Shown piece by piece: positions 1 to 7,225 of a stretch of 36,233 nt of DNA. The DNA lies in assembly GCA_016210855.1 (NCBI GenBank), contig JACQTJ010000121.1, positions 1-36,233 of the forward strand. Direction: 5' to 3'. The notes under the pieces are model-generated. The model was not told the origin of the DNA, did not search any database, and saw only the letters and a program-made list of their open reading frames with translations. A program made the position numbers and the translations under genes. Positions within the stretch are counted from its first letter, which is position 1. Each line of letters starts with the position of its first letter. This stretch comes from Acidobacteriota bacterium. GTDB lineage: Bacteria > Acidobacteriota > Terriglobia > Acidiferrales > 2-02-FULL-67-57.

Positions 1-1985
1 CGGCGGGCGGGCCGGGCGGCCTCCGGGGCCTGGCTGGGAACCAGGGCAATCAGCGTACCCAGCACCATGACGAAGCCGCCGATCCAGACCCAGTTGACGA
101 GGGGGTTGATATAGACCTGAATCACCGCTCGTCCCGACTGCTCGGCCATGCCGGCGAAGACCAGGTAGACGTCTTCGTTCAGGCGGGGGCGGATGGCGAC
201 CTCGGTGGTGGGCTGCTGGCTGGCCTTGTAGAGCCGGCGCTCGGGGTAGAGGGTGGTCAAGAAGCGGTTGCCGTCATAGACCTGGATGCGGGCCCGGGTG
301 GCGATGTAGTTGTCGTTTTCGGTCTCTTCGAGCCCCTCGACGAGAAAGCGGTAGTTGCGGACGGTGACTTGGTCGCCGGCGGCGACTTCGGCCTGCTCGT
401 GGGCGTTGAAGGCGTTGCCGACGAAGCCGATGAAGAGCAGGGCCACGCCGAAGTGGATGACGTAGCCGCCGTAGCGGCGGGTGTTGCGCCGGGTGAGATG
501 GACGACGGCCGGGACCCAGCCCGCGGCGGTCTTCTGCCGGATGACGCGGGCGCCGCGATAGAACTCCATGACAATGGTGGCGATGACGAAGAAGGAGAGG
601 AAGATGGCCATCAGAGCGAACAGGTTGCGGGCACCGAGGGCAAAGCTCACCGCCGCCACGGCGGCCCCGAAGAGGAGGGGGCGGCTGAAGTTGCGGTGCA
701 AGCTTTCGAGCGAGGTTCGCCGCCAGGCAAAGAGCGGCCCCACCCCGGTCAGAAATAGCAGGAAGAGCCCGATGGGGATCTGGACTTTGTTGAAGTAGGG
801 GGCGCCGACGCTGATCTTCACCCCGCGCACGGCTTCCGAGATGAGCGGAAAAAGCGTTCCCCAGAGCACGGCAAAGCAGGCGGCCAGCAGGATGAGGTTG
901 TTGAAGAGGAAACTCGACTCGCGGGAGAGGAGCGAGTCGAGCTGGTTTTCGCTCTTCAGGAAGTCGAGCCGCCGCAGCAGCAGCGCCCCACTGAAGGCCA
1001 GCCCGGCGGCGATGAAGACGGCGAAGTAGGGCCCGATGGCGGACTGCGCAAAGGCGTGCACGGAGCTCAAGACGCCGCTGCGGGTGAGGAAGGTGCCGAA
1101 GAGGCAGAGGAAGAAGGTGGAGAAGATCAGCACCATGTTCCAGACCTTCATCATGCCGCGCTTCTCCTGCATCATCACCGAGTGCAGGAAGGCGGTGGCG
1201 GTGAGCCAGGGGAGGAGGGAGGCGTTTTCGACCGGGTCCCAGCCCCAGTAGCCGCCCCAGCCGAGCACAGCGTAGGCCCAGCGGGCGCCGAGCAGGACGC
1301 CGATGGTGAGGAAGCCCCAGGTGACCATGGTCCAGCGGCGGGTGATGTGAATCCATTTTTCTCCCTTGGCGCGGGTGGCGAGGGCGGAGAGGGCGAAGGC
1401 GAAGGGCACGGTGAAGCCGACGAAGCCGAGGTAAAGCATAGGTGGGTGAATCACCATCGCCGGGTGCTGGAGGAGCGGGTTCAGGCCGCCGCCGTCGGGC
1501 GGGGAGAAGATTTCGAGCCCGGTGGCGGCCTCGACGGCCAGCACACGGAAGGGGTTGGCGCCGAAGTTGTTCAGGAGCAGGAAGAAGAGCTGCACCATCA
1601 TCAGGGTGGCGAGGGCGTAAGGCATCAGGTGGCGGTGGCTGCGGCGGTTGAGGAGCACGACGGCGATGGTGTAGAGGGAAAGAATGCCGCTCCACCACAG
1701 GAGCGACCCCTCCTGGCCCGACCACAGGGCAGCGAATTTAAAGTAGAGAGGCAGGGCGCGGTTGCTGTGGGAGGCGATGTAAGCGACGCGGAAATCATCC
1801 TGGAGCAGGAGCACCACCAAGCAGAAGGTGGCTACCAGCACCAGCCCGCCGACGGCCACGGCGGCCCGCTCGGCGCTCTGCTGCAACAGGGGCTTGCGCT
1901 TCCAGCGGCCGATGAGGGCGGCGGCAATGGCATAAGCGGAAAAGGGCAGGGCGAGCAGGAGGGCAAAGCTTCCCAGGGAATCCAT
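1..1985 (-). CDS. ccmF: Cytochrome c haem lyase subunit CcmF (partial at 3' end)
   Basis: This membrane protein delivers haem from holo-CcmE to apocytochrome c outside the cytoplasmic membrane (System I cytochrome c maturation). About 661 codons are visible and the frame runs off the left edge without a stop, so the C-terminus is missing. The translation is a long series of hydrophobic segments. It contains the haem-handling WWD signature (WGGYWGWDPVEN, Asp near residue 250) flanked by the usual CcmF context. The ATG start lies 4 bp after the ccmE stop, so the two genes are translationally close and share the promoter upstream of ccmE. NrfE/CcsA-like relatives share the WWD motif, but the length and the partner ccmE point to CcmF. 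In the variant System I suggested by the CcmE sequence, CcmF would work without CcmH; ccmH cannot be judged from this window. Confidence 0.93.
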   Translation of the reverse strand, partial: MDSLGSFALLLALPFSAYAIAAALIGRWKRKPLLQQSAERAAVAVGGLVLVATFCLVVLLLQDDFRVAYIASHSNRALPLYFKFAALWSGQEGSLLWWSGILSLYTIAVVLLNRRSHRHLMPYALATLMMVQLFFLLLNNFGANPFRVLAVEAATGLEIFSPPDGGGLNPLLQHPAMVIHPPMLYLGFVGFTVPFAFALSALATRAKGEKWIHITRRWTMVTWGFLTIGVLLGARWAYAVLGWGGYWGWDPVENASLLPWLTATAFLHSVMMQEKRGMMKVWNMVLIFSTFFLCLFGTFLTRSGVLSSVHAFAQSAIGPYFAVFIAAGLAFSGALLLRRLDFLKSENQLDSLLSRESSFLFNNLILLAACFAVLWGTLFPLISEAVRGVKISVGAPYFNKVQIPIGLFLLFLTGVGPLFAWRRTSLESLHRNFSRPLLFGAAVAAVSFALGARNLFALMAIFLSFFVIATIVMEFYRGARVIRQKTAAGWVPAVVHLTRRNTRRYGGYVIHFGVALLFIGFVGNAFNAHEQAEVAAGDQVTVRNYRFLVEGLEETENDNYIATRARIQVYDGNRFLTTLYPERRLYKASQQPTTEVAIRPRLNEDVYLVFAGMAEQSGRAVIQVYINPLVNWVWIGGFVMVLGTLIALVPSQAPEAARPAR

Positions 1986-1989
1986 CTAT

Positions 1990-2418
1990 CTAGGAGCCGG
2001 ACCGGAGCGACTCACGGGTTGTTCCCGGCGGCAGGGCCTCGTACTTGGAGGCGCACTTGGCCTGGACTTTCTCGGCAACGAAATAGTTCTCGGCCGAGTA
2101 CTTCCCGGTGACGATGGCCTGGGCGTTGTCGACCAGGGTGTCGGGCACGGGTTCGGTGCCGACGTAGACCACTTCCAGGCGGTCGTCGCCCTGGTGGAGC
2201 TGGAAGCGCACCTGGCGGCCCTCGCGGCGGATCGAGTCCGGGACCACGTCGCCCGCCACCCGCAGGCGCAGCCGGTAGGCGTGGTCGCCCTGGGCACGCA
2301 GCTCGGGGATGGTCACGTAATAGGTTTTGCTTTCCTGGACGCCGCTGATTCCGAGCCAGACCAGCACGCCCAGGATGATGGCCGCTCCGGCACCGAACTT
2401 CAGGGTCCTGCCGCTCAT
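1990..2418 (-). CDS. ccmE: Cytochrome c-type biogenesis haem chaperone CcmE, CXXXY variant
   Basis: The protein is a periplasmic haem chaperone of 142 residues, the usual CcmE length. An N-terminal membrane anchor (about residues 9-26) is followed by the OB-fold beta-barrel, with the typical stretches VAGDVVPDSI and VYVGTEPVPDTL. In classical CcmE a histidine in an HXXXY motif binds haem covalently. Here the aligned motif is CASKY, with Cys122 and Tyr126, which is the CXXXY form described for the variant System I of archaea and some bacteria such as Desulfovibrio. The Cys codon lies at 2053-2055 and reads clearly as TGC. The gene starts the ccmE-ccmF pair and has a near-consensus promoter about 55-85 bp upstream. 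Confidence in the family is high. The variant chemistry is inferred from the motif. Confidence 0.93.
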   Translation of the reverse strand: MSGRTLKFGAGAAIILGVLVWLGISGVQESKTYYVTIPELRAQGDHAYRLRLRVAGDVVPDSIRREGRQVRFQLHQGDDRLEVVYVGTEPVPDTLVDNAQAIVTGKYSAENYFVAEKVQAKCASKYEALPPGTTRESLRSGS

Positions 2419-3901: not shown

Positions 3902-3928
3902 TTGAAAACGGAGGAATTGTGCTAAAGT
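3902..3928 (+). promoter_or_regulatory. Probable promoter for the sat-cysC operon
   Basis: TTGAAA (3902-3907, five of six) precedes an extended -10, TGC plus TAAAGT (3923-3928, four of six). The spacer is 15 bp, shorter than ideal, but the TGn extension can compensate. The predicted start near 3935 gives a leader of about 75 nt before the sat ATG at 4011. The promoter diverges from that of the minus-strand dehydrogenase-like gene within a 186-bp intergenic region. Confidence 0.45.
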
Positions 3929-4010
3929 GCAGGGTTCTTTGAGCGGGAGGGCCTGCGGCCGGGCACTGGGCGCCGGGTCGGGACTCGGAATCGAGAAACG
4001 AAGTCGCGGA

Positions 4011-5186
4011 ATGGGAACGTTCACGACCATCGCCCCTCATGGGGGTAGCCTGGTTAACCGCCAGGTGCGGGAGGAGGACCGGGAGGCTCGCCGGGAGCAG
4101 GCCGCCCGCCTGAAGCGCCTCGAGCTGGGGCTCCGGGAGGTGTCTGATCTGATGCTCCTGGGCGTGGGGGGGTTCTCTCCTCTGGAAGGCTTCCTAACCT
4201 CGGCCGACTACCATTCGGTGGTCCGCGAGGGCCGACTGGCTAGCGGCCTGCCTTGGACAATCCCCATTATCCTGCCCGTCTCCGCCGATGTGGCGGCAGC
4301 GGTTAGGCTCGGTGACGAGATTGGATTATGGACGTTAGGCAACCACCTGCTCGGGACGCTTGAGGTCCGCGACAAGTTCCGCTACGACAAAGAGGAGCAG
4401 GCCCGGAAGGTCTTTGGCACCACTGACCGCCACCACCCGGCTGTGGACTACCTTCACAACTGCGGCGAGGTGCTTGTGGGCGGGCCGATTTCCCTCCTCG
4501 ACCTCCCGCCCGTTGACCCCTGTTACGAGAGCTTTCTTCTGCACCCGCGCGAGACCCGCTACCTCTTCCAGCAGAAAGGCTGGCGCACCGTGGTGGGCTT
4601 CCAGACTCGCAACCCCGTCCACCGCGCCCACGAGTACATCCAAAAGTGCGCCCTGGAGACCGTGGATGGGCTGCTCCTCCACCCTCTGGTTGGGGAAACC
4701 AAGAGCGACGACATCCCCGGGCCGGTGCGGATGGAGTGCTACCGGGCCCTCATGGACCACTACTACCCGCGCGACCGCGTGGTGCTTTCCGTGTTTCCGG
4801 CCGCGATGCGCTACGCGGGCCCCCGAGAGGCTATCTTCCACGCCGTGGTGCGCAAGAACTACGGCTGCACCCACTTCATCGTTGGCCGCGACCACGCCGG
4901 GGTGGGCAACTTCTACGGCCCCTACGACGCCCAGCGCATCTTCGAGCGCTACACCCCGGACGAGCTCGCCATCACCCCCATGTTCTTCGACTTCACCTTC
5001 TACTGCCGCCGCTGCGCCCACATCGTCTCGGAGAAAACCTGCCGGCACGACGAGGACGACCGCATCTTCTTCAGCGGCACCCGGGTGCGCGAGTTGCTGG
5101 CCCGCGGCCAGAGCCTGCCCGAAGAGTTCACCCGGCCGGAGATTGCCCGGATTCTCGCCGCCGCCTCCCGCCGGCACGAGTTGTAG
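4011..5186 (+). CDS. sat: Sulfate adenylyltransferase (ATP sulfurylase, Sat type)
   Basis: The enzyme converts ATP and sulfate to adenosine 5'-phosphosulfate (APS) and pyrophosphate. The 391-residue product is the single-chain Sat type, not the CysD/CysN heterodimer. The ATP-binding motif QTRNPVHRAHE is at residues 198-208 and GRDHAGVG at 292-299. Cys332, Cys335 and Cys344 with His346/347 resemble the zinc site of bacterial and archaeal Sat. The open frame extends upstream to a GTG at 3927, but I chose the ATG at 4011 because the family typically begins with a short stretch before PHGGxLVNR. The gene leads a run with a phosphodiesterase, cysC and a PHP phosphoesterase, which points to APS being phosphorylated to PAPS. 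No APS or sulfite reductase genes are present in the window. Confidence 0.95.
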   Translation: MGTFTTIAPHGGSLVNRQVREEDREARREQAARLKRLELGLREVSDLMLLGVGGFSPLEGFLTSADYHSVVREGRLASGLPWTIPIILPVSADVAAAVRLGDEIGLWTLGNHLLGTLEVRDKFRYDKEEQARKVFGTTDRHHPAVDYLHNCGEVLVGGPISLLDLPPVDPCYESFLLHPRETRYLFQQKGWRTVVGFQTRNPVHRAHEYIQKCALETVDGLLLHPLVGETKSDDIPGPVRMECYRALMDHYYPRDRVVLSVFPAAMRYAGPREAIFHAVVRKNYGCTHFIVGRDHAGVGNFYGPYDAQRIFERYTPDELAITPMFFDFTFYCRRCAHIVSEKTCRHDEDDRIFFSGTRVRELLARGQSLPEEFTRPEIARILAAASRRHEL

Positions 5187-5194
5187 AGAAGAAA

Positions 5195-6583
5195 ATGAGT
5201 CGGCCAGCCAAGGTCGCCGTCATCGGCCTGGATTGCGTGCCGCCGGAGCTGGTCTTCGACCGCTGGCGCGACCAGCTGCCCTGCCTGCGCCGCTTGCAGG
5301 AAGAAGGCTGGTGGGGCCGCTTGAAGAGCGTCGTGCCTCCCATCACCGTCCCCGCCTGGTCCTGCATGATGAGCAGTCGCGACCCGGGCGAGCTCGGCAT
5401 CTACGGCTTCCGCAACCGCAAGGACTACAGTTACGACGGCCTGGTCTTTGCCAATTCCACCGCGGTGAAGGAAGACCGCCTCTGGGACATCTTGAGCCGC
5501 GCCGGCAAGCAGGTGGTCCTGCTGGCGGTGCCAGGCACCTACCCGCCCCGGCCGCTGAACGGGGCCATGGTGGGCTGCTTCCTCACCCCTGGCCCCGACT
5601 CCGACTACACCTATCCGCCGGCGCTGAAGGCGGAGCTGACCACTCGCTTCGGGCCCTACCGGCTCGACGTCGAAAACTTCCGCTCCGAGGACAAGCAGCG
5701 CATTCTCGACGACATCTACCGGATGACCGAGCAGCACTTCGCCATGGCCCGCCACCTCGTCACCAGCCGCCTCTGGGACTTCTTTATGATGGTCGAGATG
5801 GGCACCGACCGCATCCACCACGCTTTCTGGAAATACTTCGACCCCGCCCACCGCAAGTACGAAAGGGGCAATCCTTTCGAGAACGCCGTCTTCGACTACT
5901 ACCGCTTCGTGGACGCCCAGGTGGCGGAGCTGCTGCCCCTGCTCGGGGAGGACACCACCGTCTTCGTGGTCTCCGACCACGGCGCTCAGAAGATGGAGGG
6001 CGGGGTCTGCATCAACGAGTGGCTGCAACAGGAAGGCTACTTCACCCTCGCCGAGCCGGTGAGCGGCCTCACCCCTCTCGCCAAAGCCAAGATTGATTGG
6101 TCGAAGACTCGCGCCTGGGGCGAGGGCGGCTACTACTCCCGCATCTTCCTCAACGTGCGGGGCCGCGAGCCCCAGGGGGTGATTCCCCCGGCGGAAGTCG
6201 AATCCACCCGCGACCAGTTGAAGCGCAAGCTCGAAGCCATGCCCGACGAGAAGGGCCGACCGATGGGCACCGTGGTCTACAAGCCCGAGGAGGTTTACCG
6301 CGCCGTGCGCGGCGTGCCCCCCGACCTGGTCGTCTATTTCGGCAATCTGCGCTGGCGCTCGGTCGGCAGCCTGGGCCTGGGCACCGTCCACACCTTCGAG
6401 AATGACACCGGCCCCGACGACGCCAACCACAGCGAGTATGGTATTTTTATCCTGCGGGAACCGGGCCGGCAGGGCCGGCGGCTCGACGACTTGAGCCTGT
6501 TCGACGTGGCTCCGACTATCTTGACCCGCTTCGGCCTCACCCCGGCCGCGGGGATGCAGGGCAAAGTGATCTCGGCGAACTGA
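5195..6583 (+). CDS. Alkaline phosphatase superfamily protein (type I phosphodiesterase/nucleotide pyrophosphatase-like)
   Basis: The 462-residue protein has the metal-site landmarks of the alkaline phosphatase superfamily. These are an N-terminal Asp in VAVIGLDC, a probable Thr nucleophile in PPITVPAWSCM (around residue 47), TDRIHHAFW in the middle, VVSDHGAQ and a late His in NHSEYGIF. This pattern is shared by type I phosphodiesterases/nucleotide pyrophosphatases and phosphoglycerate-mutase-like enzymes. No signal peptide is evident, so it is probably cytoplasmic. The true start is the ATG at 5195, eight bases after the sat stop. The same frame is open well upstream inside sat, but that is a GC-rich shadow. 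Its place between sat and cysC suggests a substrate linked to APS, PAPS or a sulfated product. That is inference; the substrate cannot be read from sequence. Confidence 0.85.
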   Translation: MSRPAKVAVIGLDCVPPELVFDRWRDQLPCLRRLQEEGWWGRLKSVVPPITVPAWSCMMSSRDPGELGIYGFRNRKDYSYDGLVFANSTAVKEDRLWDILSRAGKQVVLLAVPGTYPPRPLNGAMVGCFLTPGPDSDYTYPPALKAELTTRFGPYRLDVENFRSEDKQRILDDIYRMTEQHFAMARHLVTSRLWDFFMMVEMGTDRIHHAFWKYFDPAHRKYERGNPFENAVFDYYRFVDAQVAELLPLLGEDTTVFVVSDHGAQKMEGGVCINEWLQQEGYFTLAEPVSGLTPLAKAKIDWSKTRAWGEGGYYSRIFLNVRGREPQGVIPPAEVESTRDQLKRKLEAMPDEKGRPMGTVVYKPEEVYRAVRGVPPDLVVYFGNLRWRSVGSLGLGTVHTFENDTGPDDANHSEYGIFILREPGRQGRRLDDLSLFDVAPTILTRFGLTPAAGMQGKVISAN

Positions 6584-6592
6584 AAGGCCCGT

Positions 6593-7225
6593 ATGGCAGA
6601 CGCGAAACGGCAGGCGGACAGCCCCGGCGTTACCTTGTGGTTTACAGGTCTGCCCTGTTCGGGCAAGAGCACCATCTCGCAGCTTGTCTACCAGCACCTG
6701 CGCCAGGCCGGCCGCAAGGTGGAGCTGCTCGACGGCGACCAGGTCCGCCAGCACCTCACCAAGGGCCTCGGCTTCAGCAAAGAGGGCCGCGACGAAAACA
6801 TTCGCCGCATCGGCTACGTCTGCCACCTCCTGACCCGCAACGGCGTGGTCGCCATCGCCGCCGCCATCTCCCCCTACCGGGCGGTGCGCGACGAGGTGCG
6901 CCGCCTGATCGGCTCGTTTGTCGAAATCTACCTCGACTGCCCGGTTGAGGTCTGCATGCAGCGCGACGTCAAGGGGATGTACAAGAAGGCCCTGGCGGGT
7001 GAGCTCCAGGGCTTCACCGGCGTCTCTGACCCCTACGAGCCCCCGCTTCACCCTGAGCTCACTCTCCACACCGACAAGGAGCCGGCGGAGGCGTGCGCCG
7101 CCCGGTTGTTGCGCCGGCTGGCCGAAATGGGCTATCTGCCCAGCGTCCGGGTTCCCCCTGAGCCCTACACCCCCGAGGAGGAAGCCGCCATCCGCCGGCG
7201 GCTTGAGCAACTGGGGTATCTCTAG
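6593..7225 (+). CDS. cysC: Adenylyl-sulfate (APS) kinase
   Basis: The enzyme phosphorylates APS at the 3' position to give PAPS, the sulfuryl donor for sulfotransferases and for PAPS reduction. The 210-residue protein shows the Walker A motif GLPCSGKST (residues 19-27), the DGDQVR segment (47-52), the FSKEGRDENIRR signature (61-72) and the conserved ISPYRA motif with Ser93. The last 25 or so residues after MGYLP extend beyond the minimal kinase. The gene begins 9 bp after the phosphodiesterase stop and ends 9 bp before the PHP gene, consistent with one transcript from the sat promoter. Confidence 0.95.
   Translation: MADAKRQADSPGVTLWFTGLPCSGKSTISQLVYQHLRQAGRKVELLDGDQVRQHLTKGLGFSKEGRDENIRRIGYVCHLLTRNGVVAIAAAISPYRAVRDEVRRLIGSFVEIYLDCPVEVCMQRDVKGMYKKALAGELQGFTGVSDPYEPPLHPELTLHTDKEPAEACAARLLRRLAEMGYLPSVRVPPEPYTPEEEAAIRRRLEQLGYL

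Follow-up and report, generated by a model that had tools for sequence, protein, structure and literature searches.

The window is the whole stretch of DNA analysed here, 36,233 nucleotides, and it makes up all of contig C109. Two ccm genes adjoin each other at its left end:

1 to 2, no strand: contig edge; in syntenic relatives ccmH, Z, X, ccmA, ccmB and ccmC lie here
3 to 1985, reverse strand: ccmF (haem lyase), with matches to PF16327 and PF01578; 661 codons present
1990 to 2418, reverse strand: ccmE, encoding a periplasmic haem chaperone of the cysteine type (System I*), anchored in the membrane at its N-terminus; 142 amino acids
2041 to 2055, reverse strand: CASKY haem-binding motif with Cys122 and Tyr126, from codon reading; conserved across the class and in other phyla

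The CcmE encoded in the window is an ordinary member of the known cysteine-type variant. The reading frame starts with ATG, and its product matches the Pfam family PF03100 (CcmE) with 76.5 bits over residues 32-128 (cut-off 24.6). Near the C-terminus the translation reads VAEKVQAKCASKYEALPPG, and the motif stands in the context QAKCASKYE. Cys122 is encoded by TGC (2053-2055) and Tyr126 by TAC (2041-2043). The preliminary description held that CXXXY replaces HXXXY, that the Cys codon is unambiguous, that the gene adjoins ccmF and that the CcmE is of the variant type. The codons bear out the first two points, the Pfam matches of the neighbouring gene bear out the third, and alignment of the motif with diverse CcmE proteins places it in the cysteine type. 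A KCASKY or KCPSKY block is found in all CcmE proteins examined at the levels of genus, family, order and class, the sole exception being an HXXXY gene on a short contig of one genome (G061). Because the block recurs throughout the relatives, the reading frame is neither a chance occurrence nor a sequencing slip.

The source genome (1.88 Mb in 130 contigs, an 87%-complete MAG) has a single ccmE copy by profile search. The same search found no second CcmE with HXXXY, which the preliminary description had named as counter-evidence. Genomes of the same genus and the same family have one ccmE match apiece. In the CcmE tree the protein joins its own genus (SH-aLRT 90) and family (97), the placement that vertical descent predicts, and records from Bryobacteraceae and other Terriglobia group with genomes of the same class. 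The exceptional contig of G061 (C746, 11 kb; loci L006 and L039) encodes a histidine-type CcmE together with an LRCxxC CcmH in a genome that also holds a second CcmE, and it may represent contamination or transfer. A tandem pair of CcmE genes, with KCPSKY and KCPHRY, was observed at L277:9-950.

The cysteine type is the standard form of CcmE in the class and is found over a dozen or more bacterial phyla. A motif scan of GTDB contigs gave at least 590 stretches, and at least 567 of these were confirmed as CcmE. The best 80 of the at least 567 include Acidobacteriota, Dadabacteria, Eisenbacteria, Chloroflexota, Zixibacteria, Bacillota, Gemmatimonadota, KSB1, Nitrospirae, Deferribacteraceae, Latescibacterota, Planctomycetota, Calditrichota, Desulfovibrio and others. 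In an unrooted tree of 204 CcmE sequences, the 14 histidine sequences form one side of a single branch (SH-aLRT 97; 94 when the motif region is left out), showing that the histidine-type CcmE of textbooks is one clade in the sampled tree. Two haloarchaeal plasmid CcmE proteins (L387:5977-6351 and L417:8512-8883) have neither CXXXY nor HXXXY and end in ...LSVRAHEG...; they run counter to the claim that CXXXY is universal in archaeal CcmE.

The gene order of close relatives indicates what is missing from the left end of the window. The C-terminal tail of ccmF is lost at the contig end; the full-length protein has 690 amino acids in a genome of the same genus (G271). The operon of that genome (L069) is ccmE-ccmF-ccmH-Z-X-ccmA-ccmB-ccmC, and the order is identical in a genome of the same family (G174, L070). 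The relevant genes of the two relatives are:

L069:7301-7753: ccmE of the congener
L069:9810-10397: ccmH of the congener, PF03918 with 60.4 bits
L069:10399-10869, forward strand: gene Z, encoding a short CcmI-like membrane protein that has a hairpin and ends in a zinc ribbon
L069:10866-11927, forward strand: gene X, secreted and membrane-anchored with a weak CarboxypepD_reg match, between Z and ccmA
L070:7852-8961, reverse strand: gene X of the family member, between Z and ccmA

The upstream flank of ccmE in L069 is that of the window, with an ATP sulfurylase and then a type I phosphodiesterase. In the window itself, ATP sulfurylase, a type I phosphodiesterase-like protein and APS kinase adjoin each other at 3927-7225, and a saccharopine-dehydrogenase-like gene lies between this group and ccmE. 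On the strength of this shared E F H Z X A B C arrangement, we expect to find ccmH and ccmABC immediately to the left of base 1, the former starting within about 100 bases. The real operon of the source organism is thus most likely ccmE-ccmF-ccmH-Z-X-ccmA-ccmB-ccmC, with the content beyond base 1 predicted from the relatives.

A CcmE with CXXXY does not imply that CcmH is missing. The preliminary description took the variant to lack CcmH, and this is contradicted by the congener and the family member, in which ccmH directly follows ccmF, by the class as a whole and by the literature. CcmE occurs in 288 of 299 genomes of the class, and PF03918 is also present in 281 of these 288, a count that includes CCW-type paralogues not always located in the operon. 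The seven ccmE-positive genomes without a PF03918 match include the source genome, and in some other acidobacterial families a cysteine CcmE is found with no CcmH detected. Whole-genome searches of 50 named genomes with a cysteine CcmE detected CcmH in 32 and not in the other 18, which include the Desulfovibrio and Phycisphaeraceae genomes searched. The absence of CcmH was a criterion in the original 2006 description of System I*, but it was dropped in the 2011 review by Stevens et al., which states that it is not characteristic of the system and that about one third of bacteria with a cysteine CcmE contain CcmH (PMC3601427).

The source genome was also searched for other Ccm proteins, as proposed in the preliminary description. 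No PF03918 match over the cut-off was found by profile search of the 87%-complete MAG, in which the contig ends inside ccmF. CcmB was likewise not found in this MAG, while a sample of 61 genomes from the class has it in 58. A second PF01578 match, on contig C73, was rejected as CcmC; it is HemX-like, because it is located among hemA, hemC and hemD. A true CcmC was therefore not found in the source genome either. In the congener and the family member ccmA, ccmB and ccmC are all present downstream. The downstream part of the operon is probably absent because the contig stops inside ccmF and the MAG is 87% complete. The best explanation, which we consider very probable, is that the CcmE of the window is the normal protein of a cysteine-type (System I*) operon in an acidobacterium and that the apparent lack of ccmH and ccmABC is due to the contig end.

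Two other explanations were weighed against this one. The lineage could have lost ccmH and be left with a genuine CcmH-less System I* like that of Desulfovibrio, so that CcmF alone attaches haem. Loss in this one species is conceivable, the source genome has no PF03918 match over the cut-off, and 18 of the 50 named genomes with cysteine CcmE lack it. However, in both relatives ccmF is directly followed by ccmH, nearly the whole class has CcmH, and the contig stops within ccmF; a Desulfovibrio-type loss was therefore rejected here as contradicted by the relatives, and we regard it as very unlikely. Even less credible is that a histidine-type ccmE and a classical ccmH lie in regions of the genome missing from the assembly and that the ccmE of the window is an accessory copy. 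The incompleteness of the MAG leaves room for this, and G061 provides a precedent, with two CcmE proteins of which one is HXXXY beside an LRCxxC CcmH on a single short contig. On the other side, the genomes of the same genus and family have one ccmE each, the remaining CcmE proteins read from the class are all cysteine-type, and the G061 contig may be contamination.

As a normal System I* CcmE, the protein would function as its studied homologues do. CcmABC would export haem from the cytoplasm and place it on Cys122, Tyr126 would ligate the haem iron, and CcmF, with CcmH, would hand the haem to the CXXCH motifs of apocytochromes c. In Methanosarcina acetivorans the homologous cysteine of CXXXY is needed for haem on CcmE and for cytochrome c, and CcmE of the C120A mutant shows no haem stain (PMC9084895). 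The System I* of Desulfovibrio, without CcmH and CcmG, functions in E. coli (PMC3601427). It is also conceivable, although we think it improbable, that Cys122 would bind haem only non-covalently and that CcmE would be a loose haem carrier. The CcmE of D. vulgaris has been reported by NMR to hold ferric haem non-covalently via the conserved cysteine, but covalent attachment has been reported for D. desulfuricans (PMC3884852), and the result with the C120A mutant also argues against a loose carrier.

The search for multihaem cytochromes, another suggestion of the preliminary description, found candidate clients in the source genome. They comprise single-haem proteins and multihaem open reading frames. 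A run of reading frames with 4, 5 and 4 CXXCH motifs lies at about 9700-12500 of contig C127 (L409-L415), and a reading frame with 8 CXXCH motifs is found on contig C62 (L416). These multihaem proteins are possible clients of the Ccm machinery.

The system is closest to System I* (Allen 2006, Goddard 2010; reviewed by Stevens 2011, PMC3601427), with which it shares a CXXXY CcmE of the PF03100 fold adjoining ccmF and, in the relatives of the window, ccmABC. It differs from the CcmH-less System I* of archaea and Desulfovibrio in that the relatives have ccmH, and its CASKY differs from the majority motif CPSKY. The streamlined CcmABCEF system of Methanosarcina acetivorans also uses the cysteine of CXXXY as the haem site, but it lacks CcmDHI (PMC9084895), while CcmH is nearly universal in the class of the window. 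With classical System I (E. coli CcmABCDEFGH) it shares the CcmE OB domain, CcmF and, in the relatives, a PF03918 CcmH. In contrast to the classical system, the histidine of CcmE is replaced by cysteine in the window and HXXXY is not encountered. The CcmH motif of the relatives is a Cys-rich LICQCGC...C...C instead of LRCxxC, and their gene order is E F H Z X A B C rather than A B C (D) E F (G) H.

The CcmH proteins found with cysteine-type CcmE never carry the classical motif. Among 181 distinct CcmH proteins read, LRCxxC is present in 19 of 19 from genomes with histidine CcmE and in none of 162 from genomes with cysteine CcmE. The latter comprise 102 Cys-rich proteins (for example CxCGCN...CNHxxC), 29 with PCC(W), 25 with CxxC and 6 others; the CxxC proteins lack the arginine, and 15 of them have a third cysteine. 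Read in relatives of the window, the CcmH motif is not LRCxxC; in the congener it is LICQCGCNYGLSHCPHLQC. Cys-rich or CCW motifs also replace LRCxxC in the CcmH of L041-L067, L159, L276 and other loci of cysteine-type genomes. The extra cysteines suggest that these proteins may differ in redox or metal-binding behaviour. Several acidobacterial families have a CcmF with a Cys-rich CcmH as its C-terminal fusion partner, in frames of about 820-950 amino acids (L197, L198, L210, L213, L215, L217-L220, L222, L225 and L226), which ties this CcmH to the haem lyase.

A strict coupling of cysteine CcmE to Cys-rich CcmH was considered and rejected. Dadabacteria and some Chloroflexota combine a cysteine CcmE with a near-classical CcmH without the arginine (LMCPVCQGQSVAESN and similar), and since the Dadabacteria motif paired with cysteine CcmE is LMCPVCQ, the two features are not strictly tied. 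The pattern that survives is that LRCxxC is never seen alongside cysteine CcmE. A statistical claim of coupling was also rejected. The LRCxxC proteins form a single split in the CcmH tree (support 91), as the histidine sequences do in the CcmE tree, so that there is one event rather than many; the match between types is co-inheritance, and coupling is unproven.

Gene X is associated with cysteine-type clusters in many phyla. Among non-redundant clusters holding E, F, A and B, X is found in 53 of 86 of the cysteine type, from nine phyla, and in none of 14 of the histidine type. The X-bearing clusters belong to Acidobacteriota, Bacillota, Eisenbacteria, Latescibacterota, Chloroflexota, Gemmatimonadota, Planctomycetota, Dadabacteria and related records. 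X most often stands in the arrangement E F H Z X A B C, which also occurs on a Metabacillus plasmid; in Desulfosporosinus X is located before E, and on haloarchaeal plasmids it adjoins ccmF and ccmB. X matches occur in four records of a plasmid collection. X lies within a ccm cluster in the three examined, and in the fourth (Cytobacillus) ccmE is a few kilobases away.

Most X proteins have weak Pfam CarboxypepD_reg matches, and there is no NCBIfam name for X. The AlphaFold2 model (pLDDT 88) shows an ectodomain folded as a beta-sandwich, with a transmembrane helix at the C-terminus. No close solved relative was found in the PDB, where the best matches are generic beta-sandwiches (TM about 0.3), and assigning a function from the fold was rejected because these matches are weak although the model is good. 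A literature search, covering sources outside subscription, found no paper linking the X domain to Ccm. Gene Z is present in 68 of the 86 cysteine-type clusters, and its short hairpin is comparable to the N-terminal region of CcmI. The tail of X beyond the helix resembles this hairpin in many phyla. Our best guess, an unproven one, is that X takes on in System I* the role that the periplasmic part of CcmI has in other systems. We see an even chance that cysteine-type Ccm, rather than being System I with a single residue exchanged and CcmH lost, is a separately evolving machine, with a non-LRCxxC CcmH that is often Cys-rich and sometimes fused to CcmF, with Z, and with X, which may handle apocytochrome or haem in place of CcmI.

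Overall, these results remove a false clue, in that CXXXY in CcmE is no sign that CcmH is absent. Both the cysteine variant and the correction of the CcmH rule were already in print (PMC3601427). What may be less ordinary is that CcmH is never LRCxxC in genomes with cysteine CcmE and that gene X occurs in cysteine-type clusters. The unusual CcmH and the unstudied gene X are the parts worth following. If X is a real part of the operon, the cytochrome c machine of much of the bacterial world has an unstudied component.
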